From positions 1 to 57,966 of the forward strand of contig JAETNR010000027.1 in assembly GCA_021772055.1 (NCBI GenBank): DNA of 57,966 nucleotides, written 5' to 3'. The first letter of the stretch is position 1, and each line of letters begins with the position of its first letter. Source of the stretch: Blautia sp. (GTDB taxonomy: Bacteria > Bacillota > Clostridia > Lachnospirales > Lachnospiraceae). The position numbers and the translations under genes are program-made. Under the pieces are notes generated by a model. The model was not told the origin of the DNA and did no database searches. It worked only from the letters and a program-made list of their open reading frames with translations. This document shows, piece after piece, positions 570-32,133 of the stretch.

Positions 570-601
570 GTATAAAATCTTTCCTCCTTTGTGGTTATTA
601 C
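570..601 (+). promoter_or_regulatory. Phage-type promoter, site 1
   Basis: GTATAAA at 570-576 and GGTTATTAC at 593-601: a variant of the ten-copy element (consensus GTCTAAA, then GGTTATTAC). The distance from the G of the first box to GTT of the second is 24. It drives the helicase gene at 631. The first box is the least conserved of the ten. Confidence 0.6.
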
Positions 602-630
602 AGAGTAGTAATCACAAAGGAGGTTTTTTT
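583..630 (+). promoter_or_regulatory. Hairpin over promoter core and ribosome site, with T7 tract
   Basis: CCTCCTTTGTG (583-593) pairs perfectly with CACAAAGGAGG (613-623); ATTAC (597-601) pairs with GTAAT (608-612) inside, after a 3-base bulge. Seven T follow (624-630), directly before the ATG at 631. The left arm lies at and upstream of the -10 box, so only RNA reading in from upstream could form the hairpin, which would act as a terminator and would bury AAAGGAGG. RNA started at this promoter should lack the left arm. The pairing is seen; the insulator role is inferred. Confidence 0.6.
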
Positions 631-2310
631 ATGGTCAATATTGAAAAGCTGGAAAAGGGTACATATTTCAAGGATGCCTTTAAGGTATCTTACAAATATG
701 ATCCTCAGATATTGAATAAAATCAGACAGCTCTCCTACAGGAGATATTTACCGGAGGAGAAAGCGTGGGAAATTCCGGCAAGTGAGCTTATACACCTCAT
801 AGATCTGATTGGAGTTGATAATATCAATGCAGATCCAAAATACTTAAAAGGCGTAGTTGCAAAAGAGGCAGGAACCGCCGCTAAAACGTCTGAGGAGGTC
901 AGAGATCGGCTTAAAGGCATTAAGCCTATAGTTGATTATCCTTTTAAAACAAAGCCGTTTCCTCATCAAATAGAGGCTTTTAACATAGGGTACAAGAGTG
1001 ATAACCTCTTACTTGCAGACGATCAGGGACTTGGAAAGACAAAAGAGAGCATTGACATAGCAGTTTCCCGGAAAGAGGAGATAGGTAAATGTCTGATTGT
1101 ATGTGGAGTAAATTCAGTTAAGTATAACTGGAGAGATGAGATCAAAATACATTCTGATGAAACCGCCATGATGATAGACGGAAAAACAGTTGATAAGAGG
1201 CTGGATCAGATTAAACTCTGGATCTATGGAAATGATTATTTTGGTATCATAAACATTGAGAGCCTGAGAAATGAGAAGATCATGGACAGCCTGTATTATA
1301 AGATTAAAGATGATCTTATAGGGGCTGTTATCGTGGATGAGATCCACAAAGGGAAAAATGGTGAAAGTGCTCAGGGAAAATCTATGAGGATGCTCAGGAG
1401 CCGGATCAGGATAGGACTTTCAGGCACTCCAATGAATAAAGCTGAGGATTTATGGAATATCCTTACATGGCTCAGATCTGAGACTATGAGCGTGTATCAA
1501 TTTAAAAATAGATATTGCATTATGGGAGGATTTAAGGGATATAAGGTAGTAGGTCACAGAAATCTTGATGAGTTAAATGAAAAGCTCAATAAGGTTATGC
1601 TGAGGAGGAAGAAAGAGGATGTGCTGGATCTTCCTCCGAAAATGTATAAGACAGAGTTTGTTGAGCTCACCAAAAAACAACAGCTTTTATACCGGGAAAT
1701 CAAACAGGGAATTGTTGATAATCTGGATAATATCATGGAGATCCCAAACCCGTTAAGCTGTACTGTAAGATTAAGACAGCTCACAAGCGGCTTATTTTCT
1801 GAGGATAACCCTAAACTTGAGAGAATAAAGGATATGCTGGAGGAGATCGTTGAGAGCGGTCATAAAGCCCTCATTTTCTCTCAGTGGGAGAAAGTAACAG
1901 AGGTATATAAAGAAGCCCTGAAAGAGTACAATCCGGCTTATATAGTGGGTGCTGTAGATGTAGAGGACAGACAGAAAGAGGTTTACCGTTTCCAGCAGGA
2001 TCCCTCTTGTAAGGTTGCTATAGGTACAATAGGTGCTATGGGTACAGGACTTACAATGACAGCGGCAAGTTATGTATTTTTCGTAGATAAAAAATACTGG
2101 GATGCTGAAAATAAACAGGCTGAGGACAGGGCTCATAGAATTGGCACAAAGGATACTGTAAATGTAGTGTCTCTGGTAGCAACAAATACCTGTGATGAGG
2201 GAATTGAGGAGTTATTGAGGGATAACAGAGCCCTCTTTGATCGGGTAGTTGAGGGAAAAGGAACAGTTGTGGATATTAAAGCTATTCTTGCTAAAATATT
2301 GCAGTTGTGA
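631..2310 (+). CDS. SNF2-family DNA helicase/ATPase with HARP-like N-terminus
   Basis: A 559-residue superfamily 2 DNA translocase. Residues about 5-55 resemble the HARP domain of SMARCAL1-type annealing helicases. The motor follows: FPHQ near 110, Walker A DQGLGKT near 131, DEIH near 236, SGTP near 264, and motif VI QAEDRAHRIG near 496. All motor motifs look intact. I chose the ATG at 631 because AAAGGAGG lies 7 bases upstream and the promoter and hairpin sit before it; the longer frame from 568 would start inside the promoter. Phage SNF2 proteins commonly accompany replication genes and probably remodel forks or recombination intermediates; that role is inferred. Confidence 0.9.
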   Translation: MVNIEKLEKGTYFKDAFKVSYKYDPQILNKIRQLSYRRYLPEEKAWEIPASELIHLIDLIGVDNINADPKYLKGVVAKEAGTAAKTSEEVRDRLKGIKPIVDYPFKTKPFPHQIEAFNIGYKSDNLLLADDQGLGKTKESIDIAVSRKEEIGKCLIVCGVNSVKYNWRDEIKIHSDETAMMIDGKTVDKRLDQIKLWIYGNDYFGIINIESLRNEKIMDSLYYKIKDDLIGAVIVDEIHKGKNGESAQGKSMRMLRSRIRIGLSGTPMNKAEDLWNILTWLRSETMSVYQFKNRYCIMGGFKGYKVVGHRNLDELNEKLNKVMLRRKKEDVLDLPPKMYKTEFVELTKKQQLLYREIKQGIVDNLDNIMEIPNPLSCTVRLRQLTSGLFSEDNPKLERIKDMLEEIVESGHKALIFSQWEKVTEVYKEALKEYNPAYIVGAVDVEDRQKEVYRFQQDPSCKVAIGTIGAMGTGLTMTAASYVFFVDKKYWDAENKQAEDRAHRIGTKDTVNVVSLVATNTCDEGIEELLRDNRALFDRVVEGKGTVVDIKAILAKILQL

Positions 2311-2323
2311 TAAGATATTTCCG

Positions 2324-2357
2324 AAAACCTATATAATGAGGGATAAATTGAGGAATA
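2324..2357 (+). promoter_or_regulatory. Shared -10/leader element, copy 1
   Basis: Holds the second copy of AAAACCTATATAAT (2324-2337), and from TATAAT onward (2332-2357) matches 24 of 26 bases with 23565-23590. No good -35 box stands 16-18 bases upstream, so promoter activity is uncertain. It precedes the HTH gene starting at 2385. Confidence 0.45.
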
Positions 2358-2384
2358 AAATTATACTTGAGGAGGTTGAGGCGG

Positions 2385-2648
2385 TTGAAAGTTTTCAACG
2401 GTGTTATTTATTATACAGTCACAGAAGTAGCTCAACTCTGTGAAAAGTCCACTCAGATTATAAAAATCTGGAATAAAAAGAGTGATGAGATAGAGAAAGC
2501 CGGAGGAGAGAGGCTGATACCTCCTCCTTACATAGCTGACAATGGGTATAAATACTGGAGTGCTGAGGATGCTCAGAAAATTATTGAGTATTCCAAAATA
2601 TCTCACAAAGAGAGGTATGGAAATTTAAAGGTGAAGAGAGAGGAGTGA
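2385..2648 (+). CDS. MerR/excisionase-like HTH protein
   Basis: An 87-residue putative DNA-binding protein. The region YTVTEVAQLCEKSTQIIKIW is an HTH with a following wing-like segment, as in MerR or excisionase-type regulators; a YWSAEDAQKI segment near the C-terminus is typical of the second half of such folds. The TTG at 2385 is favoured because GAGGAGG (2369-2375) lies 9 bases upstream; a TTG at 2367 would sit inside that ribosome site. The stop codon lies in the loop of the terminator at 2638. Its target is unknown. Confidence 0.6.
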   Translation: MKVFNGVIYYTVTEVAQLCEKSTQIIKIWNKKSDEIEKAGGERLIPPPYIADNGYKYWSAEDAQKIIEYSKISHKERYGNLKVKREE

Positions 2649-2664
2649 TCCTCTCTCATTTTTT
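2638..2664 (+). terminator. Rho-independent terminator
   Basis: GAGAGGA (2638-2644), loop GTGA, TCCTCTC (2649-2655), then CA and a long T tract. Ends the helicase/HTH transcript. Confidence 0.8.
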
Positions 2665-2807
2665 TTTCACCGTATACGGATTTTCCGTAAACGGTTTTTC
2701 CGCAACAAATAAATACTAAATAAACAAAATACTAAATATCTAAAAAATCAAAGATTTTTTAGAGGGCAGAGCCCTTTAGAAGAGTTGAAAAACTTTTCTT
2801 TTTTTTT
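2665..2807. other. Non-coding stretch with stacked hairpins and AT-rich repeats
   Basis: ACCGTATACGGA (2669-2680) and TCCGTAAACGGT (2684-2695) form an 11/12 inverted repeat around TTT, followed by T5. An AT-rich part carries two AATACTAAAT direct repeats (2710-2745). Then come AAAAAATC/GATTTTTT, AGGGC/GCCCT, and AGAAGAGTT/AACTTTTCT with a T9 tract that ends at promoter site 2. The last hairpin is a terminator. The AT-rich repeats could belong to an origin, but nothing proves it. Confidence 0.5.
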
Positions 2808-2838
2808 GTCTAAATAATTCTTTAGTTTTTGTTATTAC
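2808..2838 (+). promoter_or_regulatory. Phage-type promoter, site 2
   Basis: GTCTAAA (2808-2814) and TGTTATTAC (2830-2838); box distance 23. The first box begins right after the T tract of the upstream terminator. Drives the 2870-3856 gene set, whose first ribosome site is AAAGGAG about 25 bases downstream. Confidence 0.75.
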
Positions 2839-2869
2839 TCAGTACAAAGACAAAGAAAGGAGATCAGGG

Positions 2870-3208
2870 ATGATACAGTTAAATTTTTTAAATGCTCAGG
2901 TAGAAGATACCGGATCAGGGCTGATTGTAAATGGTAGAGAGCTTAGTGATATTATATCGGCGGCTTTAGGCACTATTAAACGTATACCGGGCAGATATGA
3001 TTATATATCTGAAAAAGATAAGGGAACGCCTTTTAAGTCAAAGCTCTGTAATGTCTCAGTAACCATTGATGATAGATCAGCGGATATTACAGAGACTATT
3101 ACCTTTGATGATAAGTCTGGAGTAGAAGAGATAACCTTGGAAGAATTTGAAAAGGAGTTAGAAAATGAGCACTCTCAGAAAACTCAACAGGCAGATCCAG
3201 AGGAATAA
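2870..3208 (+). CDS. Unknown phage protein, 112 aa
   Basis: Not recognised. An acidic soluble protein beginning MIQLNFLNAQVEDTG, with predicted beta-rich character in the middle (alternating hydrophobics around VSVTIDD and TETITF) and a charged, Glu/Gln-rich tail. ATG has a strong AAAGGAGA site. First gene after promoter site 2. It overlaps the next small gene by 44 bases, so the two are probably translationally coupled. No signal peptide or membrane segment. Confidence 0.7.
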   Translation: MIQLNFLNAQVEDTGSGLIVNGRELSDIISAALGTIKRIPGRYDYISEKDKGTPFKSKLCNVSVTIDDRSADITETITFDDKSGVEEITLEEFEKELENEHSQKTQQADPEE

Positions 3209-3317
3209 AGGTGAATTGCCTATGAAAAAGGTTGTTGCCCGGAAACTGGGTTGCACAAATAAAGAATTAAACAGGAGATTTTTTAACAAGAAAAAGGAGG
3301 ACAAAGACAATGAGTAG
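3165..3317 (+). CDS. Small basic protein, 50 aa
   Basis: Not recognised. ATG at 3165 with AAGGAG at 3153 in the preceding gene. Very basic (about 17 Lys/Arg of 50), with VARKLGCTNKELNRRFF looking like a short helix-turn-helix; nucleic-acid binding is a guess. Its stop overlaps the start of the next gene (3310). The good ribosome site and coupling to both neighbours support it as real. Confidence 0.55.
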   Translation: MSTLRKLNRQIQRNKGELPMKKVVARKLGCTNKELNRRFFNKKKEDKDNE

Positions 3318-3642
3318 AGGTATGTTTGGTGGAATGTTTTCAGGTATGGGTTGTATGGGATCGGATCCGTTTTTTTTTGACGGGGCAAGATCAGAGGAAG
3401 ATGTGAGAAGAGAAGAGGATAAGCTGGCAGAAGCCCATAAAAAGTTTGAAGAAAGCAAGAGAAAAGAGATCACGATCACAAAAGAGGAGTTTATGAAGAG
3501 AGCGGCAGAGGTTATCTCCAGTGGAAGATTTTCCAGTCTGATGATTGAGAGTGATCCGAAAATGGGATTTCTTACTATGCTGGTGGTAACTCCTCTGATC
3601 TCAGATTTGACACATGAGTTGTTTGATAAGGAGGATAAATAG
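3310..3642 (+). CDS. Unknown protein with Gly/Met/Phe-rich N-terminus, 110 aa
   Basis: Not recognised. The first 25 residues are an unusual Gly/Met/Phe run (MSRGMFGGMFSGMGCMGSD), followed by a charged helical stretch (about 28-65) and a hydrophobic patch (MGFLTMLVVTPLI) near residue 90. Start ATG at 3310 follows AAAAGGAGG. It overlaps the upstream gene by 8 bases. The N-terminal composition suggests a flexible or self-associating segment. Confidence 0.65.
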   Translation: MSRGMFGGMFSGMGCMGSDPFFFDGARSEEDVRREEDKLAEAHKKFEESKRKEITITKEEFMKRAAEVISSGRFSSLMIESDPKMGFLTMLVVTPLISDLTHELFDKEDK

Positions 3643-3643
3643 T

Positions 3644-3856
3644 ATGGCAGAGAATAAACCACAGGTAAGAGTATCATCCATTGAGGTTGAGTTGGGAATG
3701 AGTGTACAGAATAAGGCTGGTATCTGGTGTAAGCCTACAGCAAGAATGGTACTTACAGTAGATGGAGGAACCTCTCCGGCTCAGAGAGCGGCTATCATTA
3801 AACAGGGATTTGATGAGGTGTGTGAAAACATTGAAAAGCTCTTAGAAGAGATGTAG
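3644..3856 (+). CDS. Unknown phage protein, 70 aa
   Basis: Not recognised. The ATG at 3644 (MAENKPQVRV) has AAGGAGG about 8 bases upstream; a longer frame from 3614 lacks a ribosome site. Alternating hydrophobics in the first half (VSSIEVEL, ARMVLTV) suggest beta strands; the C-terminal third (FDEVCENIEKLLEEM) is an amphipathic helix. It ends with TAG TAA, then a terminator at 3871. Confidence 0.65.
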   Translation: MAENKPQVRVSSIEVELGMSVQNKAGIWCKPTARMVLTVDGGTSPAQRAAIIKQGFDEVCENIEKLLEEM

Positions 3857-3870
3857 TAAATAAAAATCTG

Positions 3871-3899
3871 GGGAGAAAGGTTACTTTCTCCCTGTTTAT
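3871..3899 (+). terminator. Rho-independent terminator
   Basis: GGGAGAAAG (3871-3879), loop GTTA, CTTTCTCCC (3884-3892), then TGTTTATTT. Ends the site-2 transcript, though some read-through into the next gene is likely because no promoter lies between. Confidence 0.7.
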
Positions 3900-3913
3900 T
3901 TGAGGTGATGGCA

Positions 3914-4600
3914 ATGGGAAAAATAAACGTGGTGAAACGAGATAATTTTACAATTATCAATAATCATGTTTTGCAGAATAAAAATCTTTCTCTGAAAGCC
4001 AAAGGATTATATGCTTTTATGTGGAGCTTGCCTCCTGATTGGGATTATTCTGTTAATGGGCTTGTAGCTGTACTGAAAGAGGGACGGGATGCTATCAATG
4101 TAGCACTGAAAGAGCTTGAGAATGAGGGATATTTAGTAAGATCTATCTCAAGATCAGGAGGTAAATTCTCAGACATGGATTATTGTCTGAATGAGATCCC
4201 GGATCCATTCAGGGATAGGACAGAGATACAGAAAAAGCCTGAGAAGAAAAAAGATCCGGTAAAGGTAAAGCAGAAGCCTAAAAAGACGTATGCTGACATT
4301 TTCAACTCTGATGAAAATAAATGTATTTCTGAGGCACTCCAGAAATACATACATGATTGTTCTGGAAAGGGGATCCGTTTTCAGACAGCTACAGTAGAGG
4401 GGTTTGCTCAGTTTCTCCGGGAAGAGGCTGGGGAAGATCCTGTACTTGCTATGAGGATTGTAGATCAGAGTTTAGATAAGGGATGGAAGAGGCTTTATAA
4501 GTTGAAAAAATATGGAGGATCTGGAGAAAATATTGAGAGAGTGCCATATAAACCTGAGGATCTGGCAAAGGACGAAAAAGGAGAGCTTGTGGTGTATTAA
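3914..4600 (+). CDS. Replication initiator/organizer-like winged-helix protein
   Basis: A 228-residue protein. Residues 1-75 match the winged helix found at the N-terminus of phage replisome organizers (NLSLKAKGLYAFMWSLPPDW, then an ALKELENEGYLVR segment). A basic linker (about 95-130) leads to a DnaD-like helical C-terminal domain with GWKRLYKLKKYG near the end. I chose the ATG at 3914 because GAGGTG stands 6 bases upstream. Directly before the DnaC-like loader and DnaB-like helicase, it fits an origin-binding initiator that recruits the loader. Confidence 0.75.
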   Translation: MGKINVVKRDNFTIINNHVLQNKNLSLKAKGLYAFMWSLPPDWDYSVNGLVAVLKEGRDAINVALKELENEGYLVRSISRSGGKFSDMDYCLNEIPDPFRDRTEIQKKPEKKKDPVKVKQKPKKTYADIFNSDENKCISEALQKYIHDCSGKGIRFQTATVEGFAQFLREEAGEDPVLAMRIVDQSLDKGWKRLYKLKKYGGSGENIERVPYKPEDLAKDEKGELVVY

Positions 4601-4601
4601 G

Positions 4602-4631
4602 AGAGGGGGAGAAATCTCCCTCTTTTTTTTT
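4602..4631 (+). terminator. Rho-independent terminator
   Basis: AGAGGGGGAG/CTCCCTCT hairpin with AAAT loop and a T10 tract that runs into the GTCTAAA box of promoter site 3. Confidence 0.75.
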
Positions 4632-4663
4632 GTCTAAAAATGAGGAGGTGATGGGGTTATTAC
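4632..4663 (+). promoter_or_regulatory. Phage-type promoter, site 3
   Basis: GTCTAAAAA at 4632 and GGTTATTAC ending at 4663; box distance 24. AAAGGAG follows 10 bases later. Drives the helicase loader and helicase genes. Confidence 0.8.
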
Positions 4664-4687
4664 TCAGAAAAGAAAGGAGTGAGGATA

Positions 4688-6702: not shown

Positions 6703-6733
6703 GTCTAAATATACCGCCCCTTTTGGTTATTAC
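6703..6733 (+). promoter_or_regulatory. Phage-type promoter, site 4
   Basis: GTCTAAA at 6703-6709 and GGTTATTAC at 6725-6733; box distance 23. Drives the regulator genes from 6767. Confidence 0.8.
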
Positions 6734-6764
6734 ACGGTAAGAAACCAAAAAGGAGGCGGTTTTT
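6713..6764 (+). promoter_or_regulatory. Hairpin over promoter core and ribosome site
   Basis: ACCGCC (6713-6718) pairs with GGCGGT (6755-6760) and TTTTGGTT (6721-6728) with AACCAAAA (6743-6750), followed by TTTT. The right arm includes AGGAGG, so folding would hide the ribosome site of the 6767 gene in read-through RNA only. Same design as at 583-630. Confidence 0.55.
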
Positions 6765-6766
6765 GA

Positions 6767-9089: not shown

Positions 9090-9107
9090 GGGAGCTTTAC
9101 AGCTCCC
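9090..9107. terminator. Bidirectional terminator between convergent genes
   Basis: GGGAGCT (9090-9096), loop TTAC, AGCTCCC (9101-9107). It lies between the 3' ends of the ParB-like gene and the repressor gene and overlaps the repressor stop codon. Confidence 0.6.
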
Positions 9108-9489
9108 CCTCTCTAAGCTGATTGAATTTATCAGCTATCCCTTTGAGTAAGATCAATTCAGACTCCTGTAAGTTTACTGAGGATTTTAATAGCTCATATA
9201 GAGGCTGATTACTCTCCAAAAGTTTAGCTATCAGGATTGGATCAGAGGATTTAGTTTTTCTTTCATAAGGATCAGTAAGTAAATCTGTAGTGGTTATGTG
9301 GAAGTAACTTGCTAACATTTCAATCTTATCCATACGAGGAAAAACTTTTCCGTTTACCCATTGCGATATTGCAGAGGATGTAACAGATAAATCCTTTATG
9401 AGATCTTGTTGCTTTTTCCCATTGATGTTCATGTAATACTGCAATGCTTTGGGAAATGCCTGTTTAGGATCTGTACTCAATTTTATCAC
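9097..9489 (-). CDS. XRE-family repressor
   Basis: A 130-residue transcription regulator and the only minus-strand gene. Residues 10-65 hold an HTH_3 domain (KKQQDLIKDLSVTSSAISQW). The helical C-terminal half (LYELLKSSVNLQESELILLK) is probably a dimerisation segment; there is no LexA/CI-type peptidase domain or Ser-Lys dyad. Gene order, divergent from the primase/sigma/polymerase region, suggests a CI-like repressor of the rightward promoter. It is the main hint that the phage is temperate; no integrase is visible. Confidence 0.8.
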   Translation of the reverse strand: MIKLSTDPKQAFPKALQYYMNINGKKQQDLIKDLSVTSSAISQWVNGKVFPRMDKIEMLASYFHITTTDLLTDPYERKTKSSDPILIAKLLESNQPLYELLKSSVNLQESELILLKGIADKFNQLREGEL

Positions 9490-9564: not shown

Positions 9565-9593
9565 TTGACATCTCAATTATATTGAGATATTAT
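9565..9593 (+). promoter_or_regulatory. Rightward SigA promoter with palindromic operator in the spacer
   Basis: TTGACA (9565-9570), exactly 17 bp, TATTAT (9588-9593). The spacer is itself the perfect palindrome TCTCAATTATATTGAGA (9571-9587). A bound dimer would block RNA polymerase. Drives the gene at 9689 and probably the replication genes behind it. Confidence 0.8.
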
Positions 9594-9611: not shown

Positions 9612-9660
9612 TTTACACTTTCTGCTATTTTTATATTCTAAAATCTCAATTTAATTGAGA
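9612..9660 (+). promoter_or_regulatory. Second rightward promoter and operator
   Basis: TTTACA (9612-9617), 16 bp, TATTCT (9634-9639), followed at the likely start site by the palindrome TCTCAATTTAATTGAGA (9644-9660). It shares TCTCAAT-N3-ATTGAGA with the first operator. The operator is clear; the promoter boxes are moderate. Confidence 0.6.
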
Positions 9661-9688
9661 TAAATCTAAATTAAAGGAGGATCCAAAC

Positions 9689-11092: not shown

Positions 11093-11704
11093 ATGAATGC
11101 AGGATTATTTAAAGGATTAAAAGATGAGGAACTGGTGGAATTGTATAAGGGTGGTAATGAGGAGGCTTTTGAGGCTTTGTTAAAAAGCACTGAGAAAATC
11201 AGATATTCCCTTGCAAAGAAATATTTAAACATTCCGGGGAGTGAGCTGGAGGATCTTATGAGTGAGGGATCTATGGAAATGATTAGAGCGGTGTGGAAGT
11301 ATGACAGAACAAAGTATACAGCCTCTTTTAAGTCTTTCTTATACACAGATCTTACTCAGCATTATAACGATCTGTTTAAGGCGGCTGTGAGCGTCAAGAG
11401 AAGCCCTAACGGGTTTGTAGAGAGCTTTGAACAGCTCAATAGTAACAGTGAGTATGACGAAGAGGGAGACAGCTTAGGAAACAGAGAGTTTTCTGTAGAG
11501 TGTGAAGATTACAGCATGGTAGAGATCAGGATGCTTATGGATAGCATAAATCTTTCCGCAAAAGAGAGGGTTGTAGTTAATCTTCTGATGGACGGAAACT
11601 CAAAGCCGGATATTGCAAGGTATTTAGGAGTAAAGACTCCCTCTGTACATACTTACATAAAACGGATTGGACAAAAGATGAATTTATCCGGTGCGTTTGC
11701 CTAA
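11093..11704 (+). CDS. Sigma-70-family RNA polymerase sigma factor
   Basis: A 203-residue sigma-like protein. Residues about 10-95 resemble region 2 (EAFEALLKSTEKIRYSLAKKYL, then DLMSEGSMEMIRAVWKYD and a FKSFLYTDLTQHYND segment). Residues about 150-198 form region 4 (NLSAKERVVVNLLMDG, then a DIARYLGVKTPSVHTYIKRI HTH). The ATG at 11093 is supported by AAAGGAG 7 bases upstream; the longer frame from 11024 overlaps the primase. It is the best candidate to read the ten GTCTAAA/GGTTATTAC promoters, which is an inference from co-occurrence. Its own stop lies in one of these promoters. Confidence 0.85.
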   Translation: MNAGLFKGLKDEELVELYKGGNEEAFEALLKSTEKIRYSLAKKYLNIPGSELEDLMSEGSMEMIRAVWKYDRTKYTASFKSFLYTDLTQHYNDLFKAAVSVKRSPNGFVESFEQLNSNSEYDEEGDSLGNREFSVECEDYSMVEIRMLMDSINLSAKERVVVNLLMDGNSKPDIARYLGVKTPSVHTYIKRIGQKMNLSGAFA

Positions 11705-11729
11705 AAACAGCCTCCTTTCTGGTTATTAC
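11699..11729 (+). promoter_or_regulatory. Phage-type promoter, site 5
   Basis: GCCTAAA at 11699-11705, which contains the sigma gene stop codon, and GGTTATTAC at 11721-11729; box distance 23. A sigma factor whose gene ends inside a promoter of the class it may recognise. Confidence 0.75.
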
Positions 11730-11749
11730 TAAATATATCAGAGAGGAGG
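11711..11749 (+). promoter_or_regulatory. Hairpin hiding ribosome site in read-through RNA
   Basis: CCTCCTTTCTG (11711-11721) pairs with CAGAGAGGAGG (11739-11749), ten Watson-Crick pairs and one G-U. The left arm lies between the promoter boxes, the right arm is the ribosome site of the 11758 gene. Third example of the design at 583 and 6713. No T tract here, so translation block rather than termination. Confidence 0.55.
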
Positions 11750-15877: not shown

Positions 15878-15883
15878 TGGTAA

Positions 15884-15911
15884 AGAGGATCTATAATAGG
15901 ATCCTCTTTTT
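15884..15911 (+). terminator. Rho-independent terminator
   Basis: AGAGGATC (15884-15891), loop TATAATAG, GATCCTCT (15900-15907), TTTT. Confidence 0.75.
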
Positions 15912-15915: not shown

Positions 15916-15945
15916 GTCTAAAAATCGTTTTTTTTTGGTTATTAC
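15916..15945 (+). promoter_or_regulatory. Phage-type promoter, site 6
   Basis: GTCTAAAAA at 15916 and GGTTATTAC at 15937-15945; box distance 22, the shortest. The spacer is mostly T. Drives the methyltransferase gene. Confidence 0.75.
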
Positions 15946-15976
15946 GGATCAGAAAAATGATCTGGAGGTAATCAGA

Positions 15977-16519
15977 ATGAAAATTGATATTATGAATACG
16001 GACAAAAAGTATAAGGTAATTTATGCTGATCCGCCATGGAGCTATAATGTGTGGAGTGGAAAAGGAAAAACAGCGGCTAATCATTATGATTGTATGAAAA
16101 AAGAGGACATTTCTAATCTCCCTGTAGGAAATCTTGCGGATAAAGATTGCGTATTGTTTTTATGGGTTACATTCCCTTGTTTGCGTGAGGGGTTGGAGGT
16201 TATGAAAGAGTGGGGCTTTGAGTATAAAACCTGTGGATTTGTGTGGGTTAAGAAGAATAAGAAAAGTGATAGTTGGTTTTGGGGGCTTGGTTATTGGACA
16301 AGAGCAAATGCTGAGATATGTTTAATTGGAACTAAAGGAAAGCCTGATAGAAAATCAAGATCTGTACATCAGGTAGTAGACTCCAGAATAAGAGAGCATA
16401 GTAGAAAGCCGGATGAGGTTAGGGATAGAATTGTACAGCTTTGTGGAGATGTACCCAGAATAGAATTGTTTGCAAGGCAATCTGTAGGTGGATGGGATTG
16501 TTGGGGGAATGAGGTATAA
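15977..16519 (+). CDS. MT-A70-family DNA adenine methyltransferase
   Basis: A 180-residue N6-adenine methyltransferase. The catalytic motif DPPW lies in VIYADPPWSY near residue 18, and the SAM-binding part is in CVLFLWVTFP and EICLIGTKG further on (permuted order typical of MT-A70). ATG at 15977 follows GGAGG. It is alone behind its own promoter and terminator, so it is a self-contained module. Phage copies usually protect against restriction. The recognition sequence cannot be read from the protein. No cognate endonuclease is present. Confidence 0.88.
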   Translation: MKIDIMNTDKKYKVIYADPPWSYNVWSGKGKTAANHYDCMKKEDISNLPVGNLADKDCVLFLWVTFPCLREGLEVMKEWGFEYKTCGFVWVKKNKKSDSWFWGLGYWTRANAEICLIGTKGKPDRKSRSVHQVVDSRIREHSRKPDEVRDRIVQLCGDVPRIELFARQSVGGWDCWGNEV

Positions 16520-16533
16520 CTCATTCCCTTTTT
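16505..16533 (+). terminator. Rho-independent terminator
   Basis: GGGAATGAG (16505-16513), loop GTATAA, CTCATTCCC (16520-16528), TTTTT. Overlaps the end of the methyltransferase gene. Confidence 0.8.
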
Positions 16534-16544: not shown

Positions 16545-16575
16545 GTCTAAAAATCTTTATTGATATGGTTATTAC
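16545..16575 (+). promoter_or_regulatory. Phage-type promoter, site 7
   Basis: GTCTAAAAA at 16545 and GGTTATTAC at 16567-16575; box distance 23. Drives the recombination gene set that ends at RecA (20765). Confidence 0.8.
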
Positions 16576-16607
16576 TCTGTAGAAAGAAAAAGGAGGATAA
16601 AGGATCA

Positions 16608-20837: not shown

Positions 20838-20884
20838 AAAACCTATATAATATCTATTGACATATTACCAAAAAGGTATATAAT
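20838..20884 (+). promoter_or_regulatory. SigA promoter with 14-bp repeat upstream
   Basis: TTGACA (20857-20862), 16 bp, TATAAT (20879-20884), the best host-type promoter besides 9565. Copy 3 of AAAACCTATATAAT lies just upstream at 20838-20851. The spacer and -10 contain an imperfect inverted repeat, ATATTACC-A5-GGTATAT, a possible operator. It starts the accessory block. Confidence 0.8.
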
Positions 20885-22672: not shown

Positions 22673-22706
22673 CTGTATATCCTTTCAAATAAGGGTATAG
22701 AGTAGA

Positions 22707-22901
22707 GTGCTTAGTATGAGTGTTGGCTGACAAGTTTTACTGGTTTTTAATGTGAAAATCTTAAAACGGGTAGGAGTTGCTGGAGGTTCCGGCTGATCCG
22801 TGCAACTATGAAACAATGTTTTCGGATGGTATCCAGATAGGAGGATGGTAGCAGGAAAAAGACGGGGTTATCTCTTATCCATGAAAGAGGCTACTAAGCA
22901 C
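22707..22901 (+). ncRNA. Structured non-coding RNA candidate, about 195 nt
   Basis: No credible reading frame covers 22646-22927. The ends form a perfect 10-bp helix, GTGCTTAGTA (22707-22716) with TACTAAGCAC (22892-22901), followed by ATTTTATTTT. Inside: GTTTTA/TAAAAC (22734-22739 with 22762-22767); GTTGC (22776-22780) with GCAAC (22802-22806); ATCCG (22796-22800) with CGGAT (22823-22827), which crosses the previous helix as a pseudoknot; and CTCTT/AAGAG near the 3' end. A TATAGA box at 22696-22701 stands 6 bases before the first helix, as for a -10, but no -35 is clear. It does not look like a tRNA, tmRNA or a riboswitch I know. It could also be a cis leader of the gene at 22928. Confidence 0.65.
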
Positions 22902-22927
22902 ATTTTATTTTAGGAGGTATATCATTT

Positions 22928-23855: not shown

Positions 23856-23870
23856 TGGCAGGATAAGAGA

Positions 23871-23902
23871 GAAGATCTTGAAAAGGATCTTCTTTTTTTT
23901 TT
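23871..23902 (+). terminator. Rho-independent terminator
   Basis: GAAGATC (23871-23877) with GATCTTC (23886-23892) and a T10 tract that runs into promoter site 8. Confidence 0.85.
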
Positions 23903-23934
23903 GTCTAAAAATGCCGGGAGGATGCGGTTATTAC
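23903..23934 (+). promoter_or_regulatory. Phage-type promoter, site 8
   Basis: GTCTAAAAA at 23903 and GGTTATTAC ending at 23934; box distance 24. AAAGGAG follows 10 bases downstream. Layout identical to site 3. Confidence 0.8.
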
Positions 23935-23960
23935 TCAATAAAAGAAAGGAGTTGAGGAGA

Positions 23961-26738: not shown

Positions 26739-26932
26739 AAAGAGGAGAATATTACAGAGGAAGAAACGGTAGAAAGTATGGTATCTGGAATACATCAAAG
26801 AAATGTTTTCAGTTTGGAATAGCTGAGGATAGTCCAATGCTGGCAGAGGCAAGGCTTTTCTATATGATCGGTGATGATGCCCGGAAATGGAGATTTACTG
26901 TAAAGATCCTCCCTGTAAATGAGGTGGTGTAA
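26735..26932 (+). CDS. Unknown protein, 65 aa
   Basis: Not recognised. Basic start MKRGEYYRGRNGRKYGIW, mixed beta character. Overlaps both neighbours by 1-4 bases in a coupled string 26505-27171. Confidence 0.6.
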   Translation: MKRGEYYRGRNGRKYGIWNTSKKCFQFGIAEDSPMLAEARLFYMIGDDARKWRFTVKILPVNEVV

Positions 26933-27171: not shown

Positions 27172-27175
27172 GGAG

Positions 27176-27924: not shown

Positions 27925-28471
27925 TGTTGGACTGTATGCAAAGGAGTATTTTGATAAAATAGATCCTGATCTGTTTAATGATCGTGGTGTGTTGGGATGG
28001 CATTACATAAAAGAGGAGGATCTTCCTATAGTGGTAAATAATGCTGGTGGTAGATGTTCATTTTATCCTGTAGAGGATAACTTTGTAGAAATAATTGAGG
28101 TGGATGAGGACAAAGAGCCTCTTACAAGAGAACAGTGTTTCCCTAAAAATTCTCCTGAGTTTGAATTTGGGTGGATTTCTCCTGAGGGAGATACTTATAA
28201 TACTGGATTTGAGGGACATTATAGAGCCGCTGTTATGATTTGTGAGGAGCTTGGATATAGCGGATTTTTGCAAGAGAGGGAGCTGGAGGAAAAAGGGTGG
28301 ATTAAGATTTCCAGAGATGTTCCATACACTTTTGAAAATCTTCACTCAAAGCATATATACACCTCAGATCTTAGAATGACAAAGAAACAGGCAGATATTT
28401 TAATTGACTTGGGGTATAGCTCTGATGAAACTTTTAAGTTTTTGGTAGATATGAATGAGGACAAGTGGTAA
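27887..28471 (+). CDS. Unknown protein, 194 aa
   Basis: Not recognised. ATG at 27887 after GAGGAGGAAGAGC; a longer upstream frame overlaps the previous gene and lacks a ribosome site. Acidic mixed protein (MGRMIKYAVYRGNVGLYAKE); EELGYSGFLQERELEEKGW and KKQADILIDLGYSSDETFKF look like two similar helical units near the C-terminus. Role unknown. Confidence 0.6.
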   Translation: MGRMIKYAVYRGNVGLYAKEYFDKIDPDLFNDRGVLGWHYIKEEDLPIVVNNAGGRCSFYPVEDNFVEIIEVDEDKEPLTREQCFPKNSPEFEFGWISPEGDTYNTGFEGHYRAAVMICEELGYSGFLQERELEEKGWIKISRDVPYTFENLHSKHIYTSDLRMTKKQADILIDLGYSSDETFKFLVDMNEDKW

Positions 28472-28487
28472 GGAGGAAATTTTGAAT

Positions 28488-28520
28488 ATGAGTAAAGAAT
28501 GGTATGGCATAGATCGCTAA
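28488..28520 (+). CDS. Ten-codon open frame, possibly the start of a broken small gene
   Basis: ATG at 28488 follows AAGGAGGAAATTTTGAAT and encodes MSKEWYGIDR before TAA. Its stop overlaps the next ATG at 28520 (TAATG). The good ribosome site suggests that it is translated, perhaps only to couple the next frame; an indel that split one small gene is the alternative. Confidence 0.35.
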   Translation: MSKEWYGIDR

Positions 28521-28600
28521 TGATGTTCTTATCTGAGGTGGATAACAAGAAAGATCCTGATGCAAAGCAGAAGTACAGATTTGAGTTAGTATCTCAATAA
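28520..28600 (+). CDS. Small unknown peptide, 26 aa
   Basis: ATG at 28520 (or 28523) in TAATG overlap with the ten-codon frame. Sequence MMFLSEVDNKKDPDAKQKYR is soluble and charged, ending FELVSQ. No own ribosome site, so coupling to the upstream frame is needed. Followed at once by a strong terminator. Confidence 0.4.
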   Translation: MMFLSEVDNKKDPDAKQKYRFELVSQ

Positions 28601-28604
28601 TAGT

Positions 28605-28648
28605 AAAACGGAAAGTATAATAAATTTTATACTTTCCGTTTTTTTTTT
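28605..28648 (+). terminator. Strong rho-independent terminator
   Basis: Perfect 16-bp stem 28605-28620 with 28627-28642 around TAAATT, then T6 to the edge of promoter site 9. Marks the end of the accessory block. Confidence 0.9.
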
Positions 28649-28679
28649 GCCTAAATACTGGAGTTTTTATGGTTATTAC
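28649..28679 (+). promoter_or_regulatory. Phage-type promoter, site 9
   Basis: GCCTAAA at 28649-28655 and GGTTATTAC at 28671-28679; box distance 23. Same terminator-promoter junction as at sites 2, 3 and 8. Confidence 0.8.
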
Positions 28680-28702
28680 TCTGTATGGAGGTGAGGTATT
28701 TT

Positions 28703-29026
28703 ATGGATAAAGAGTCTAACTTTTGCAAAGATGCTGAGGATTTGTTGGAGTATTTGAAAACATACCATAATACTGAGAAAACGGCTATAAAAAGTGGTGA
28801 GATTGGTGAGATCTTTAACCTGTATAAAGAGAAATTGAGGTCAACCGTAAATTATTTGAGGAGTATAGGTTATCCGGTGTGTAGCTCCTCACGGGGTTAT
28901 TGGTATTCTGAAAAACCGGAGGACATTGAGAAAACCCTCACTCATTTAGAGGGCAGGATAAAAGGAATGAACAGGGCAATATCAGGATTAAAAAGGATAC
29001 AACAGGACAAAAAAAAACAAGGATAA
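28703..29026 (+). CDS. Winged-helix-like protein, 107 aa
   Basis: Putative DNA-binding protein. Residues about 10-70 look like a wHTH (AEDLLEYLKTYHNTEKTAIK, then STVNYLRSIGYPVCSSSRGYWY as recognition helix and wing), followed by a helical tail (THLEGRIKGMNRAISGLKRI). ATG at 28703 with GGAGGTGAGG 6 bases upstream; the ATG at 28685 lacks spacing. Phage proteins of this kind often act as regulators before the late genes. Confidence 0.6.
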   Translation: MDKESNFCKDAEDLLEYLKTYHNTEKTAIKSGEIGEIFNLYKEKLRSTVNYLRSIGYPVCSSSRGYWYSEKPEDIEKTLTHLEGRIKGMNRAISGLKRIQQDKKKQG

Positions 29027-29086
29027 AACAGGAGAGGCAGGATAACTTATTTTTCTGTCTCTTTTATATATTGGGAGGATGTAGAG

Positions 29087-29299
29087 GTGTTTAAGGTAGA
29101 TGAATTGGTAAAGTATATGATGCCTCTGGATGCGGATTACAGCTATGGTGTTATTCTTGAGCTGAAAAAGGGTAGAGCCGTGGTATTATCTAAATCTTAT
29201 CCTCATGGGACAATAACAGAGGTTCCATACAGGTTTATAGATCACTGTGGAAAAGAGGTGAGGACGGTTGGGAGCCGTGAGGGTAAAAACAATCAATGA
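29087..29299 (+). CDS. Unknown protein, 70 aa
   Basis: Not recognised. GTG at 29087 with GGGAGGATGTAGAG upstream. Beta-rich (YGVILELKKGRAVVLS), SH3-like look, as in small KOW-type barrels. Overlaps the sigma-like gene. Confidence 0.55.
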   Translation: MFKVDELVKYMMPLDADYSYGVILELKKGRAVVLSKSYPHGTITEVPYRFIDHCGKEVRTVGSREGKNNQ

Positions 29300-29837
29300 C
29301 AGATTGTTAAATGTAGATTATGCAGATCCAGAGGAAATTAAAATGATTATATCTAACTGGGGGATGATGGAGAAGCTGGCAGAGGGAGGAGATACTGTAG
29401 CCTCAGCTATTCTTGTAGATCTCCAGAGAGCTATAGGGGTGAGTATATCAGAGTTTGGAGAGAATAAGAAAGCCGGATTTGATGTGAGTAAGATAGAAAA
29501 GGGCGTACTTACAGAGGCTCAGTTTATTTCTCTGGTATATGTTCTTGGGATGGGATACAGACAGGATGAGATAGCTTTTGTACTGGGATGTAAAAAGCAG
29601 ACAGTAAATATCCATGTGCATAGAGCTCTTGTGAGAATATGTAAGTTTTTGGAGGGAGAACGGGTAAAGGATGGCAAGGAGAATAAGAAAAAGAGAAGAG
29701 GATCCGGCAGACAAGTGGCTAAGAGAAAACGATCCGTATTATACGGACATGAGCCGGGGAAAGTCAAACAAACTAAGAAATCCTTATCTCACTCCAGATC
29801 AGGAAGTAGTAAGAGCAAGGAGAGAGATACCCATTAG
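29268..29837 (+). CDS. Sigma-70 region 4-like / ArpU-type late regulator
   Basis: A 189-residue protein with an HTH at about residues 85-130 (LTEAQFISLVYVLGMGYRQD, then AFVLGCKKQTVNIHVHRALV) typical of sigma region 4 and ArpU-like phage late regulators. There is no region 2. The last 55 residues are Lys/Ser/Arg-rich and overlap the next gene in another frame for 167 bases. TTG at 29268 (GAGGTGAGG upstream) or GTG at 29277. Directly before the packaging module, it is the natural candidate for the late-gene activator; inferred from position. Confidence 0.7.
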   Translation: MGAVRVKTINDRLLNVDYADPEEIKMIISNWGMMEKLAEGGDTVASAILVDLQRAIGVSISEFGENKKAGFDVSKIEKGVLTEAQFISLVYVLGMGYRQDEIAFVLGCKKQTVNIHVHRALVRICKFLEGERVKDGKENKKKRRGSGRQVAKRKRSVLYGHEPGKVKQTKKSLSHSRSGSSKSKERDTH

Positions 29838-29886
29838 TTGTATGTCTGATGTGGATCTGGATTATTTGAGCCTGAATAAGAGGTAA
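29671..29886 (+). CDS. Unknown basic protein, 71 aa
   Basis: Not recognised. ATG at 29671 inside the sigma-like gene, another frame. Begins MARRIRKREEDPADKWLREN and ends with an acidic DVDLDYLSLNKR. The composition looks protein-like, so the overlap may be real double coding, or the sigma-like frame was extended by an indel. Confidence 0.5.
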   Translation: MARRIRKREEDPADKWLRENDPYYTDMSRGKSNKLRNPYLTPDQEVVRARREIPISCMSDVDLDYLSLNKR

Positions 29887-29981
29887 TAGGCTGACTTTGT
29901 AGGAATAATTTACACCTATATTATGAAAGCAATTTGAAACGGTTATGAAATAAATTATGAAGTAAAAGGAGGAAAATTGCT

Positions 29982-30584
29982 ATGGATATGAAAGAAAGAG
30001 AAATCCGGTACACGGATCCTAAGAACCTGATCCCATATGAGAATAATCCACGGGATAACAGGTTGGCTATTGAGGATGTAGCAAACAGTATTAAGGAGTA
30101 TGGATTTACCTCTCCTATTCTGGTAAATGAGGAAATGGTAATTCTGGCAGGACATACCAGAAGAGAGGCGGCAATACTGGCAGGATTGGACAGTGTTCCG
30201 TACATAGTCATAGATGGACTTACAGAAGCTCAGCAAAAGGCGTACAGGCTGGCAGATAATAAGCTCTCAGAGTTATCCTTGTGGGATGAGGACTTATTAA
30301 AGCAGGAGTTAGAGGATCTGATGAATGAGGACTATGATCTATCTCTTACAGGATTTACAGATGTGGATCTGAGTGGATTGTTTCCTGAGGAGGATCCGGT
30401 AAAGGCTGAGGAGGACAATACTCAGGCTGAGGAGAAAACTACTCTTCCTATGTTACGTTTCGGATCCAACAGCGTAAGAATTACTCAGGATGAGCTTATC
30501 ATGCTGAGTAACAGATACAATGAGTATGTGGAGGCTGAGCCGGGAGAGGGATTTGTAACATGGCTGTTAAAGAGAGGTATTTAG
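29982..30584 (+). CDS. ParB N-terminal-domain protein before the packaging genes
   Basis: A 200-residue protein. Residues 10-95 form a ParB-type domain (LIPYENNPRDNRLAIEDVAN, AGHTRREAAILAG near 50-62). ADNKLSELSLWDEDLLKQEL follows, as in the ParB part that precedes methyltransferases in phages, but no methyltransferase is attached. The acidic linker and C-terminal FVTWLLKRG part are specific. Such genes often stand just upstream of terminases. Third ParB-like protein in the window. Confidence 0.8.
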   Translation: MDMKEREIRYTDPKNLIPYENNPRDNRLAIEDVANSIKEYGFTSPILVNEEMVILAGHTRREAAILAGLDSVPYIVIDGLTEAQQKAYRLADNKLSELSLWDEDLLKQELEDLMNEDYDLSLTGFTDVDLSGLFPEEDPVKAEEDNTQAEEKTTLPMLRFGSNSVRITQDELIMLSNRYNEYVEAEPGEGFVTWLLKRGI

Positions 30585-30585
30585 A

Positions 30586-30780
30586 GTGGATGCTGTCAGG
30601 ATTTTACATGATAATGTGCTGAAAAGAAAAATAGCAGAGAGGCATGGAGTAACCCCGGATGATGTAGAGTTAGAATGGCTGGGAGAGAATAGATATAACG
30701 TGATTGTACATCCGGTAAAGAAAGCGGAAAATATTATAATAAATATTGTTTTTGGAGAGGGGGAGAGGTATTCAGGATGA
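30586..30780 (+). CDS. Unknown protein, 64 aa
   Basis: Not recognised. GTG at 30586, two bases after the ParB-like stop (AAAGAGAGG upstream). Has HGVTPDDVELEWLGENRYNV and a beta-like end. Overlaps the membrane protein gene by 4 bases (ATGA). Confidence 0.55.
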   Translation: MDAVRILHDNVLKRKIAERHGVTPDDVELEWLGENRYNVIVHPVKKAENIIINIVFGEGERYSG

Positions 30781-31010
30781 TAGAAATAATTAAAACAGGA
30801 GTTGTGTTTCTTTTTGGATTTTCTCCTTATGTATTCATGCTCTGGTTTGTGTGTGATGTGATCCGGGACATTCGGAGAAAAGAGAAGTTGGAGAAAGAAG
30901 AAGAGAAAGCCCGGAAAGAAAGAAACCATGCAGTTTATATGTTAGCTCTGGAGCTGGAAAGGCTTAATGATAGATTAGAGTGTACAGCGTGTCCGGGGGA
31001 CAAAGAGTAA
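30777..31010 (+). CDS. Small membrane protein, 77 aa
   Basis: One transmembrane helix at residues about 7-28 (GVVFLFGFSPYVFMLWFVCD) followed by a charged coiled-coil (RRKEKLEKEEEKARKERN) and a Cys pair near the end (ECTACPG). Topology resembles anchored coiled-coil proteins such as Rz-like or small phage membrane proteins, but it lies far from any lysis gene. Function unknown. Confidence 0.6.
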   Translation: MIEIIKTGVVFLFGFSPYVFMLWFVCDVIRDIRRKEKLEKEEEKARKERNHAVYMLALELERLNDRLECTACPGDKE

Positions 31011-31077
31011 GCCTGTAAAGAGTACCAGAAGAAAGAAAGGTATTACTGGCAGGAAAAGAAAGAGGAGGTGAAAGGTC

Positions 31078-31140
31078 ATGGCTTGCAAAGGTGGAAACAA
31101 AGGCGGCAAAAAGGGTAAAGGCGGCAGTAAAGGAAAATAA
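31078..31140 (+). CDS. Twenty-residue Gly/Lys-rich peptide
   Basis: ATG at 31078 has GAGGAGGTGAAAGGTC upstream, one of the best ribosome sites here. The product MACKGGNKGGKKGKGGSKGK consists nearly only of Gly and Lys, with one Cys. Likely nucleic-acid-binding or an unstructured tag. Similar tiny Gly/Lys frames before terminase genes occur in other phages as far as I recall, but I cannot verify it here. Confidence 0.5.
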   Translation: MACKGGNKGGKKGKGGSKGK

Positions 31141-31485
31141 GATAAAAACAATATCCGGGGGTATGAAGAAAGTATTTCATACCCCTATGTAATTCATAGA
31201 AATGAGGATGAAGCCGGGGAAGAGAAAATAAGCATTTCCGGGAAAGAGAAAACATTGATAAATAAAAGACATAACAAAGAAATAGTATCAAAGATAATAA
31301 AGAAGAAAGCTATATGTATCTGAGTAACATAGATACTTTTTCACAGAGGCAATAGATGTAATACAGGTTTTTAATAAAATCTTGTACATTTAAAGCCTTT
31401 TTTTAATGCAGTAAAGAGAATTTAAGAAAAACCCCTCAAATAAATAAAAATGAGGAGTGAGGGGGAGAGAGGAGGTTTAGATCTT
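31141..31485. other. 345-base non-coding stretch before the terminase
   Basis: No frame with a ribosome site. GGGGTATGAA (31158-31167) and TTCATACCCC (31176-31185) make a perfect 10-bp hairpin without a T tract. GTATCT/AGATAC (31316-31336) is followed by TTTTT, a weak terminator. An AT-rich, A-rich middle carries no clear repeats. Placement directly before the small terminase makes it a candidate for the packaging (pac or cos) site or a regulatory leader. Confidence 0.45.
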
Positions 31486-32013
31486 ATGGCTGATGAAAAG
31501 GGGCAAAGCTCCGGGAAAGAGCCTGAGGTTGTCTCTATAAAGGGAAAAAAGGAGACAGAAGCTCAGAAACAGGCATTTGAGCTGTATTACAACATGGGAG
31601 CAAAGAGATCTTTAGAGGCTGTAGCAAGTGCCTGTAATAAGAGTACCCGTACTATAGGGGAATGGAGCCGCCAGTTTAAGTGGAAAGATCGTATAGTCCA
31701 GAAAGAAATTGAGGAAACGGCTGAAAAAGGCTCTGTAGCCAATGCTGTACTGGATGTAAAGGCTGAGTACAGACAGGTTATCAGGGCTTTAGTAGCAACC
31801 TTTGTAAAGGATTTTAAAGCAGGAAAGGTAAAGATTAAGAATATACAGGACTTTGAGAGAGTGGTGAAACTGGATCTGTTACTCTTGGGAGATCCTACAG
31901 ACAGGATAGCTCAGGAAAATAAGGAGCAAGTGGAGCTTTCTGAGGAGGATAGAAAGGCTATTTTTGCTGTAGCAGACAGTATTCGGGCTGAGATGAACGC
32001 TCTCAAGAGCTGA
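31486..32013 (+). CDS. terS: Terminase small subunit
   Basis: A 175-residue DNA-packaging recognition protein. An HTH of the phage terminase type lies at about residues 25-60 (AFELYYNMGAKRSLEAVASA then NKSTRTIGEWSRQFKWKDRI), followed by a helical oligomerisation part. ATG at 31486 with GAGGAGG 10 bases upstream is better than 31450. It is separated from the large terminase by 3.2 kb of metabolic and small genes, which is unusual. Confidence 0.8.
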   Translation: MADEKGQSSGKEPEVVSIKGKKETEAQKQAFELYYNMGAKRSLEAVASACNKSTRTIGEWSRQFKWKDRIVQKEIEETAEKGSVANAVLDVKAEYRQVIRALVATFVKDFKAGKVKIKNIQDFERVVKLDLLLLGDPTDRIAQENKEQVELSEEDRKAIFAVADSIRAEMNALKS

Positions 32014-32102
32014 TTTATTGTGCAATTTTACTTTTTGGTGTCAGAAATTCCCGTGGGTAACATAAACGGTAATAGCAAATATGCACAAAAAATATACCGC
32101 CT

Positions 32103-32133
32103 GTCTAAGATTGACAGGTTTTGAGGTTATTAC
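32103..32133 (+). promoter_or_regulatory. Phage-type promoter, site 10
   Basis: GTCTAAG at 32103-32109 and GGTTATTAC at 32125-32133; box distance 23. CCTGTC/GACAGG flank the first box as a hairpin (32101-32118). Rightmost copy found. Drives MazG, DUF3310, ThyX genes. Confidence 0.75.

Follow-up and report, generated by a model that had tools for sequence, protein, structure and literature searches.

Candidate promoters of a phage-encoded SigH-like sigma factor, most of them placed behind or folded into predicted read-through barriers

Several phages, SPO1, T4, phiEco32 and 7-11 among them, encode a sigma factor that redirects the host RNA polymerase to a repeated bipartite promoter. In SPO1 this factor is gp28, a phage-encoded sigma with its own promoter class. 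Such classes are likewise described for gp36 of phiEco32 and gp47 of 7-11 (in excerpts of PMC8948821) and for gp55 of T4 (in excerpts of PMC3014915). The latter excerpts, with those of PMC2988022, also describe a hairpin at T4 gene e, soc and I-TevI and at Aeh1 mobE, which hides the ribosome-binding site and whose 5′ strand is encoded by a late promoter; only RNA started there is translated. Here we predict, from sequence, a phage sigma with a repeated promoter of this kind in a stretch of 57,966 nucleotides from Blautia sp. (the window), which is an entire contig of a 4.64 Mb assembly. The window carries a tailed-phage gene set (DNA polymerase A, primase, DnaB-like helicase, SSB, RecA and a Cas4-like nuclease) and virion genes (SPP1-type portal, SU10-type capsid, baseplate J). 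With a probability that we put at roughly three in four, ten sites in it are promoters for the host RNA polymerase with a SigH-like sigma factor encoded by the phage, eight of the ten having a predicted barrier to read-through. These barriers follow two architectures, tandem and nested, which are new here and were overlooked by the first-pass annotation of this DNA.

The ten copies of the motif that the annotation had pointed out were all located. They align as G[TC]CTAAA-N15-GGTTATTACT (class A), and all lie on the + strand, 5′ of non-structural gene blocks. The upstream box, for which nine copies of G[TC]CTAAA had been claimed, is exact in eight, the others being GTATAAA at 570 and GTCTAAG at 32103, while GGTTATTAC is exact in nine and replaced by TGTTATTAC at 2830. 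Measured from start to start, the boxes are 21-23 bases apart and not 22-24; the gap between them is 15 bases in six sites, 16 in three and 14 in one, and a first pattern search with gaps of 18-26 gave no match. At the common spacing TCTAAA occupies -35 to -30, TTATTA -12 to -7 and an A +1, which is the geometry of a promoter. This A, the sixth base after GGTTATTAC and seven bases 3′ of TTATTA, stands at the expected +1 in all ten sites, and the next gene start follows 53-63 bases 3′ of the T of the TCTAAA box.

The ten sites score 27.8-37.3 bits with a matrix derived from them and stand fully apart from the rest of the window, where the best + strand place reaches 15.9 and the best - strand place 18.5. 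Leave-one-out scores range from 20.0 to 36.0, the lowest belonging to the weakest site, 15916, which lies barely above the best background of its own matrix (19.3). Twenty Markov-resampled windows hold two places in total with a score of at least 20, against ten in the real one. Throughout the assembly, TAAA-N14-22-GGTTATTAC occurs at eight places (missing two of the ten sites) and GNYTAAA-N13-17-GGTTATTAC at seven (missing three), all of them in this contig, and this confinement of the exact motif speaks against a host sigma. The SigA promoters reported at 9565 and 20857 are both present, with 11 and 12 matches to the 12 consensus bases. Virion genes do lack the motif, as had been noted: no site lies directly 5′ of the terminase large subunit, portal, major capsid, tape-measure-like or baseplate J genes.

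For each of 67 sites in the window and its relatives, we computed the best hairpin pairing DNA 5′ of the predicted +1 with the Shine-Dalgarno (SD) sequence, and, for the stretch preceding the -35 box, the best terminator-like hairpin followed by a U-tract. Five window sites are of the tandem type, their -35 box immediately preceded by an intrinsic terminator. Three are of the nested type, where the promoter DNA is the 5′ arm of a hairpin whose 3′ arm is the SD, usually followed by U's. Promoters, hairpins and terminators of the window are as follows.

570..607, + strand: class A promoter 1, nested, 5′ of the SNF2-like helicase gene, from -35 to predicted +1
583..623, + strand: hairpin over promoter 1, -27.3 kcal/mol; 5′ arm spacer and -10, 3′ arm +1 to SD, then T7
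2808..2844, + strand: class A promoter 2; weak terminator-like hairpin upstream at 2778-2799, -7.9 kcal/mol
4599..4628, + strand: intrinsic terminator abutting promoter 3 (hairpin computation, terminator scan)
4632..4669, + strand: class A promoter 3, tandem (matrix)
6703..6739, + strand: class A promoter 4, nested, 5′ of the Rha-like gene (matrix)
6713..6760, + strand: hairpin over promoter 4 and its SD, -23.3 kcal/mol, then TTTTT
11699..11735, + strand: class A promoter 5, nested without U-tract, overlapping the sigma gene end (matrix)
11711..11749, + strand: hairpin over promoter 5 and its SD, -21.2 kcal/mol, no U-tract after it
15882..15909, + strand: intrinsic terminator 5′ of promoter 6 (hairpin computation, terminator scan)
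15916..15951, + strand: class A promoter 6, tandem, the weakest site, 5′ of the MT-A70 methylase gene (matrix)
16503..16530, + strand: intrinsic terminator 5′ of promoter 7 (hairpin computation, terminator scan)
16545..16581, + strand: class A promoter 7, tandem, 5′ of the Cas4-like nuclease gene (matrix)
23865..23898, + strand: intrinsic terminator 5′ of promoter 8 (hairpin computation, terminator scan)
23903..23940, + strand: class A promoter 8, tandem (matrix)
28605..28642, + strand: intrinsic terminator 5′ of promoter 9 (hairpin computation, terminator scan)
28649..28685, + strand: class A promoter 9, tandem (matrix)
32103..32139, + strand: class A promoter 10 (matrix); neither hairpin nor terminator found by the script

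At the nested sites 570, 6703 and 11699 the predicted start lies inside the predicted hairpin and there is no upstream terminator. The upstream terminators of the tandem sites 4632, 15916, 16545, 23903 and 28649 have -14.3 to -19.0 kcal/mol, and the nested values at these five sites are 0 to -5.2 kcal/mol, except for 15916 with -16.1. An independent terminator scan also lists the five tandem terminators, together with the nested hairpin at 583-623 (19 pairs and a T7 tail). Most nested hairpins in the whole set also resemble terminators, with at least four T's in the following eight bases. At promoter 9 we read the predicted +1 (28685) as the first base of an ATG that shares its frame with the gene start at 28703, possibly a leaderless start.

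The candidate reader of these sites, together with the elements that may control its expression, is found upstream of promoter 5.

11093..11704, + strand: phage sigma factor of 203 amino acids, region 2 and region 4, SigH-like (profile and fold matches)
9565..9593, + strand: SigA-type promoter 5′ of the sigma-containing operon (11/12 consensus match)
9570..9588, + strand: operator-like dyad within the SigA promoter (dyad search)
9643..9661, + strand: second operator-like dyad (dyad search)
9097..9480, - strand: divergent Cro/CI-type helix-turn-helix (HTH) repressor-like gene (profile matches)

That the 11093 protein combines regions 2 and 4 of a sigma factor, as first proposed, is borne out by profile and fold. 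Its region 2 matches Pfam PF04542 (Sigma70_r2; E 5e-6, 26.7 bits, cut-off 24), the sigma70-ECF superfamily model gives 46.7 bits (cut-off 42.9), and its C-terminus (residues 153-199) matches Pfam GerE (PF00196), an HTH of the region 4 type. Residues 10-197 match PHROG 351, “RNA polymerase sigma factor”, at E 9e-17; the best NCBIfam match is SigH (TIGR02859, E 8e-14) and the best PDB match 3mzy (E 2e-12). The structure model (mean pLDDT, or predicted local distance difference test, 74.8; pTM, or predicted template modelling score, 0.47) has helical domains at 11-102 and 142-199 with a disordered linker. In a Foldseek search its first match was the model of RPSH (SigH), and all 19 matches at E <= 0.001 were sigma factors or sigma-complex entries. 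With 51.6 bits against the TIGR02859 cut-off of 294.8, the protein falls outside the SigH (Spo0H) equivalogs, and by its sequence it is best described as SigH-like, not SigH. A 19-base dyad, ATCTCAATTNNATTGAGAT, occurs in the 9565 promoter and at 9643 and, with up to three mismatches allowed, nowhere else in the window; the HTH repressor-like gene adjoins this dyad-bearing promoter, and its product presumably binds the dyads. Another protein, encoded at 29268-29837 in the stretch 3′ of promoter 9, has a sub-threshold match to Sigma70_r4_2; at a guess, this region-4-like protein could be a late transcription factor for the virion genes from 35 kb on.

Contigs with a related sigma were taken from IMG/VR plus one Clostridiales metagenome-assembled genome. 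Searches of a phage collection by megablast and tblastn found no relative, and a loose pattern scan of viral contigs listed mostly chance matches, 119 of those contigs serving as background. The class A motif occurs in relatives whose sigma is 41-67% identical to that of the window. The expectation that relatives with the same sigma type carry such sites held in six of seven contigs, the window included, and failed in one, L012; Q3, a 23 kb fragment in which the sigma was not found, has two class A sites. In the seven contigs whose sigma shares 32-37% identity with that of the window, all sites belong to a class B, TCTAAA-N15-TGATTA(A/G)GTTA(A/G)NTA, with the same TCTAAA box and another -10, and every relative bearing class B sites has a sigma gene. 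At a threshold score of 20 the classes never mix: 33 A sites lie in eight contigs and 45 B sites in seven others, with none crossed. The class A counts are 10 in the window (W), 11 in P1, 7 in P2, 1 each in L011, L013 and L014, 0 in L012 and 2 in Q3, all without B sites; the class B counts, all without A sites, are 8 in P3, 8 in P4, 11 in P5, 8 in Q1, 7 in Q2, 1 in L172 and 2 in L173, those of P3 and P5 not being independent because the B matrix was seeded with ten P3/P5 sites.

The class B users cluster together in the sigma tree (support 0.898), and no single supported clade unites the class A users, L014 standing apart. The class switches at the same gene starts, where the old motif is gone and the other -10 box is there. 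At every one of the ten window gene starts, one relative or more has a class A or class B site: class B sites occur in one relative or another at g2, g4, g9, g11, g20, g26, g28 and g55, and only class A ones at g44 and g63. The offset from TCTAAA to +1 is 35 bases in 50/50 class B sites and 34-36 in 31/31 class A sites, and +1 is A in 46 of the 50 and A or G in 30 of the 31, numbers that are partly selected, +1 being a position of both matrices. Across 397 genomes from the host's family the sigma profile has 99 matches at E <= 1e-20, the window's own included; two of the three inspected were SigH and one was another sigma, in genome G047. The DNA polymerase gene is present in only one of the 397 genomes, that of the window itself. 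The first-pass interpretation as a sigma regulon is supported, the computed checks agreeing on motif geometry, relatives, class switch, sigma identity and the lack of further matches to the exact motif in the host assembly.

The two architectures were counted with cut-offs of -18 kcal/mol or lower for nested and -10 for tandem. The 67 sites (61 nonredundant) make up a discovery set, drawn from the places scoring at least 17. Dropped from this listing were window -633 (the mirror of a hairpin) and P3 11957, L192 -11994 and L189 17154, lone class A scores of 17.2-19.9 in group B contigs or beyond phage core genes, which sit below the threshold of the no-mixing count; all L175 and L176 rows (P3 copies) were also dropped, and L178 5481 (score 15.6) was added. 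A hold-out of 21 sites from three further contigs used the same cut-offs, with all rows kept. Among the 61 sites, one has both features, 19 are nested only, 26 tandem only and 15 neither (Fisher p = 9e-6; 0.0014 and 0.0042 with laxer cut-offs), and the hold-out gave 0, 5, 8 and 8, its five nested sites all lacking a strong terminator and each having 6-7 T's. The combined 81 nonredundant sites amount to 1, 24, 34 and 22 (one-sided Fisher 5e-7), a near exclusion of terminators by hairpins. Strong hairpins occur in 25/81 sites and at one of 67 window gene starts without a site; 40 rounds of exchanging spacers among the sites gave 4.25 on average and never more than 7. The eight bases after the SD include at least four T's in 23 of the 25 strong nested sites and in 4 of 54 sites outside this group (p = 2e-10). 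Of the 15-21 pairs in the 20 nonredundant hairpins of the discovery set, 13-21 lie across the predicted +1.

The type of barrier also follows the gene start. All five sites before g2 (SNF2) and all seven before g11 (Rha) are nested, though the arm sequences differ. Before g9, four of five are tandem without nesting and the fifth has both; tandem without nesting is the rule at g44 (3/3), and g28 is never preceded by a nested site (8/8). The start of g26 (MT-A70) is tandem in W and P2 and nested in P5 and L173, the assignment in P5 resting on 38% identity. At the Rha site, P1 and P2 differ, in our reading of the two sequences, by a compensatory change of C-G to T-A at the stem base. On the - strand of L187 (relative P1), at about 1822, a class A site lies behind a terminator with no SD or gene found downstream, and may drive a noncoding RNA.

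The nested arrangement bears on the ribosome site in particular. In 27 nested sites (redundancy kept) the mean probability of an unpaired SD is 0.02 in the read-through RNA and 0.60 in RNA from +1, compared with 0.35 and 0.71 in 35 tandem sites and 0.43 and 0.77 in 24 sites of neither type. In the window it changes from 0.00 to 0.59 at 570, from 0.20 to 0.99 at 6703 and from 0.00 to 0.92 at 11699.

A number of results weigh against this picture. Neither barrier is found at 22 of the 81 sites, 32103 in the window among them, and the start after the sigma gene has neither in six of nine contigs, being nested only in W, P1 and P2. With laxer cut-offs 7/61 sites have both features, the exclusion in the hold-out alone reaches a one-sided p of 0.06, and, with sites that share ancestry or arose by duplication, all the p-values above are too small; how the types distribute over the gene starts is better evidence. 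The RNA started at +1 is not always open, 18 of the 27 nested sites passing both accessibility limits. The hairpin of promoter 5 (11711-11749) falls outside the definition of an intrinsic terminator; at 11699 there is no U-tract, so the effect would be limited to hiding the ribosome site. No site scores 20 or more in L012, which is 5.8 kb long and has a class-A-type sigma, L011 and L012 show an inverted core, GTAATAAC, at the start after the sigma gene, and the 14 kb around a more distant sigma in L213 (G047) contain no A or B site. Other genes split the same groups (SSB 89% vs 69-72%, primase 78-79% vs 52-56%), so the A/B split follows general phage distance: it amounts to co-divergence and not to proof of recognition, and the switch alone does not single out the sigma. 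An expectation that region 4 would be conserved (in keeping with the shared -35 box) and region 2 diverged also failed, region 4 not being clearly conserved.

Could the sites be read without the 11093 sigma? Host SigA with a phage activator on the TCTAAA box, after the manner of T4 MotA/AsiA, would account for the conservation of this box though the two groups differ in region 4 of their sigma, and the in-register hexamer TATTAC shares four of six bases with TATAAT. However, all 31 class A sites have C at -6, where SigA prefers T, class B (GATTA(A/G)GTTA) has no TATAAT-like hexamer at that place, and a sigma gene accompanies class B sites in every relative that has them, all of which makes SigA with an activator a distinctly unlikely reader. 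Another phage protein such as the region-4-like 29268-29837 product, with its sub-threshold match and its position downstream of promoter 9, is a highly improbable one: it has no region 2 match and its own operon begins with a class A site, whereas both regions are present in the 11093 protein, whose operon follows a SigA promoter.

Two further alternatives concern the hairpins. If the conserved boxes were an RNA leader that regulates translation and no promoter at all, the strong spacer-SD hairpins in 25/81 sites would find an explanation; but the boxes are identical with or without a hairpin and keep promoter spacing, it is the arms that vary and not the boxes, and no Rfam family is reached at gathering score, so that we give this idea very little credence. 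The promoters might also be real and the nested hairpins be coincidences of SD and anti-SD or DNA operators, without effect on read-through. Spacer swapping alone yields about four strong hairpins in 81, and 22 of the 81 sites have neither feature. Against this stand the 25 observed hairpins, U-tracts found only after nested hairpins, the constant type before the SNF2 (5/5) and Rha (7/7) genes with differing arms, and the MT-A70 gene, with a tandem terminator in two contigs and a nested hairpin in two others; we regard coincidence as rather unlikely.

Under the preferred reading, promoters for the phage SigH-like sigma, the divergent HTH protein (9097-9480) would bind the dyads in the SigA promoter at 9565, and once it is gone SigA would transcribe the primase-sigma operon. 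The sigma would then recognise the ten sites and start RNA at the A of each, presumably with the “middle” timing first proposed. In the tandem type, the terminator just 5′ of the -35 box would stop upstream transcripts. In the nested type, the same stretch of DNA would be both promoter and hairpin: RNA coming from upstream has both arms, so its SD would be paired, and this RNA would also terminate at two of the three nested window sites, those with a U-tract after the 3′ arm; RNA from the embedded +1 has only the 3′ arm, that is the SD, so the ribosome could bind. Such barriers against upstream transcripts would mean that each block is expressed mainly from its own promoter. Whether this extends to an insulation code throughout the regulon, every promoter of one phage sigma being paired with a read-through barrier or folded into one, seems to us an evenly balanced question. 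Were it true, some 45 bases would serve as upstream terminator, next promoter and ribosome site of the first gene, and at 583-623 the end of a late transcript would be the start of a middle operon.

Other features of the window are of interest in themselves. A tail-type open reading frame (ORF) at 56226-57965 runs off the right contig end, and the left end (1-57) holds what looks like the last codons of an ORF (...VGFKIAA stop). An ORF whose product ends in VGIKIAA stands, in our own reading of the sequence, immediately 5′ of the SNF2-gene site in relative L010. With such ORF remnants at both ends, a circularly permuted phage genome is a possible reading of the contig. Promoter 1 is separated from the tail gene by a low-molecular-weight tyrosine phosphatase-like gene (73-537), of which a 78% identical copy is found in the G047 fragment L213, which also has the distant sigma. 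The stretch 22690-22915 contains no ORF, is closed by GTGCTTAGTA/TACTAAGCAC and folds with -59.7 kcal/mol (z -1.97); it matches no Rfam family at gathering score and is possibly a structured noncoding RNA. The perfect SigA promoter (20857-20884) overlies an imperfect dyad, ATATTACC/GGTATAT, 5′ of a gene of 166 residues, with which it would form a second host-read unit.

In gut-type Firmicute phages, a sigma with so clearly delimited a regulon would offer an orthogonal promoter system ready for use, and classes A and B together would be a natural experiment on the joint change of a sigma and its -10 box. The nested element would show a compact genome placing termination, initiation and translation start in the same bases. 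We found no description of the motif or of terminator-nested promoters in the open-licence literature, which was searched with few terms, and the portion of the LUZ100 paper considered (PMC10134795) mentions no such nested element.

The sequence predicts, with good support, a new pair of sigma and promoter whose kind is known but on which terminator and ribosome site are superimposed in an unusual way. SigH (Spo0H) of Firmicutes is the closest family and fold match to the 11093 protein, but the class A promoter is unlike the SigH promoters printed in Table 3 of PMC7438776, as far as the excerpt goes. The diverged sigmas of phiEco32 and 7-11, with different consensus sequences at similar genome positions, resemble classes A and B, although their consensus, in the excerpted text, is tAATGTAtA and GTAAtg-(16)-aCTA and differs from the motif here. 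Unlike in these two phages, T4 and SPO1, the sigma is SigH-like, its sites precede non-structural and not virion genes, and its promoters are overlaid with terminators or hairpins. For the ribosome-site half of the nested design, T4 gene e as described in those excerpts is the precedent: here too the promoter lies within the 5′ strand and the SD in the 3′ strand. The T4-type hairpins described there belong to scattered late genes, whereas here about a third of the sites of one sigma (25/81) have them, a U-tract follows the 3′ arm in most, and the hairpin replaces a tandem terminator.

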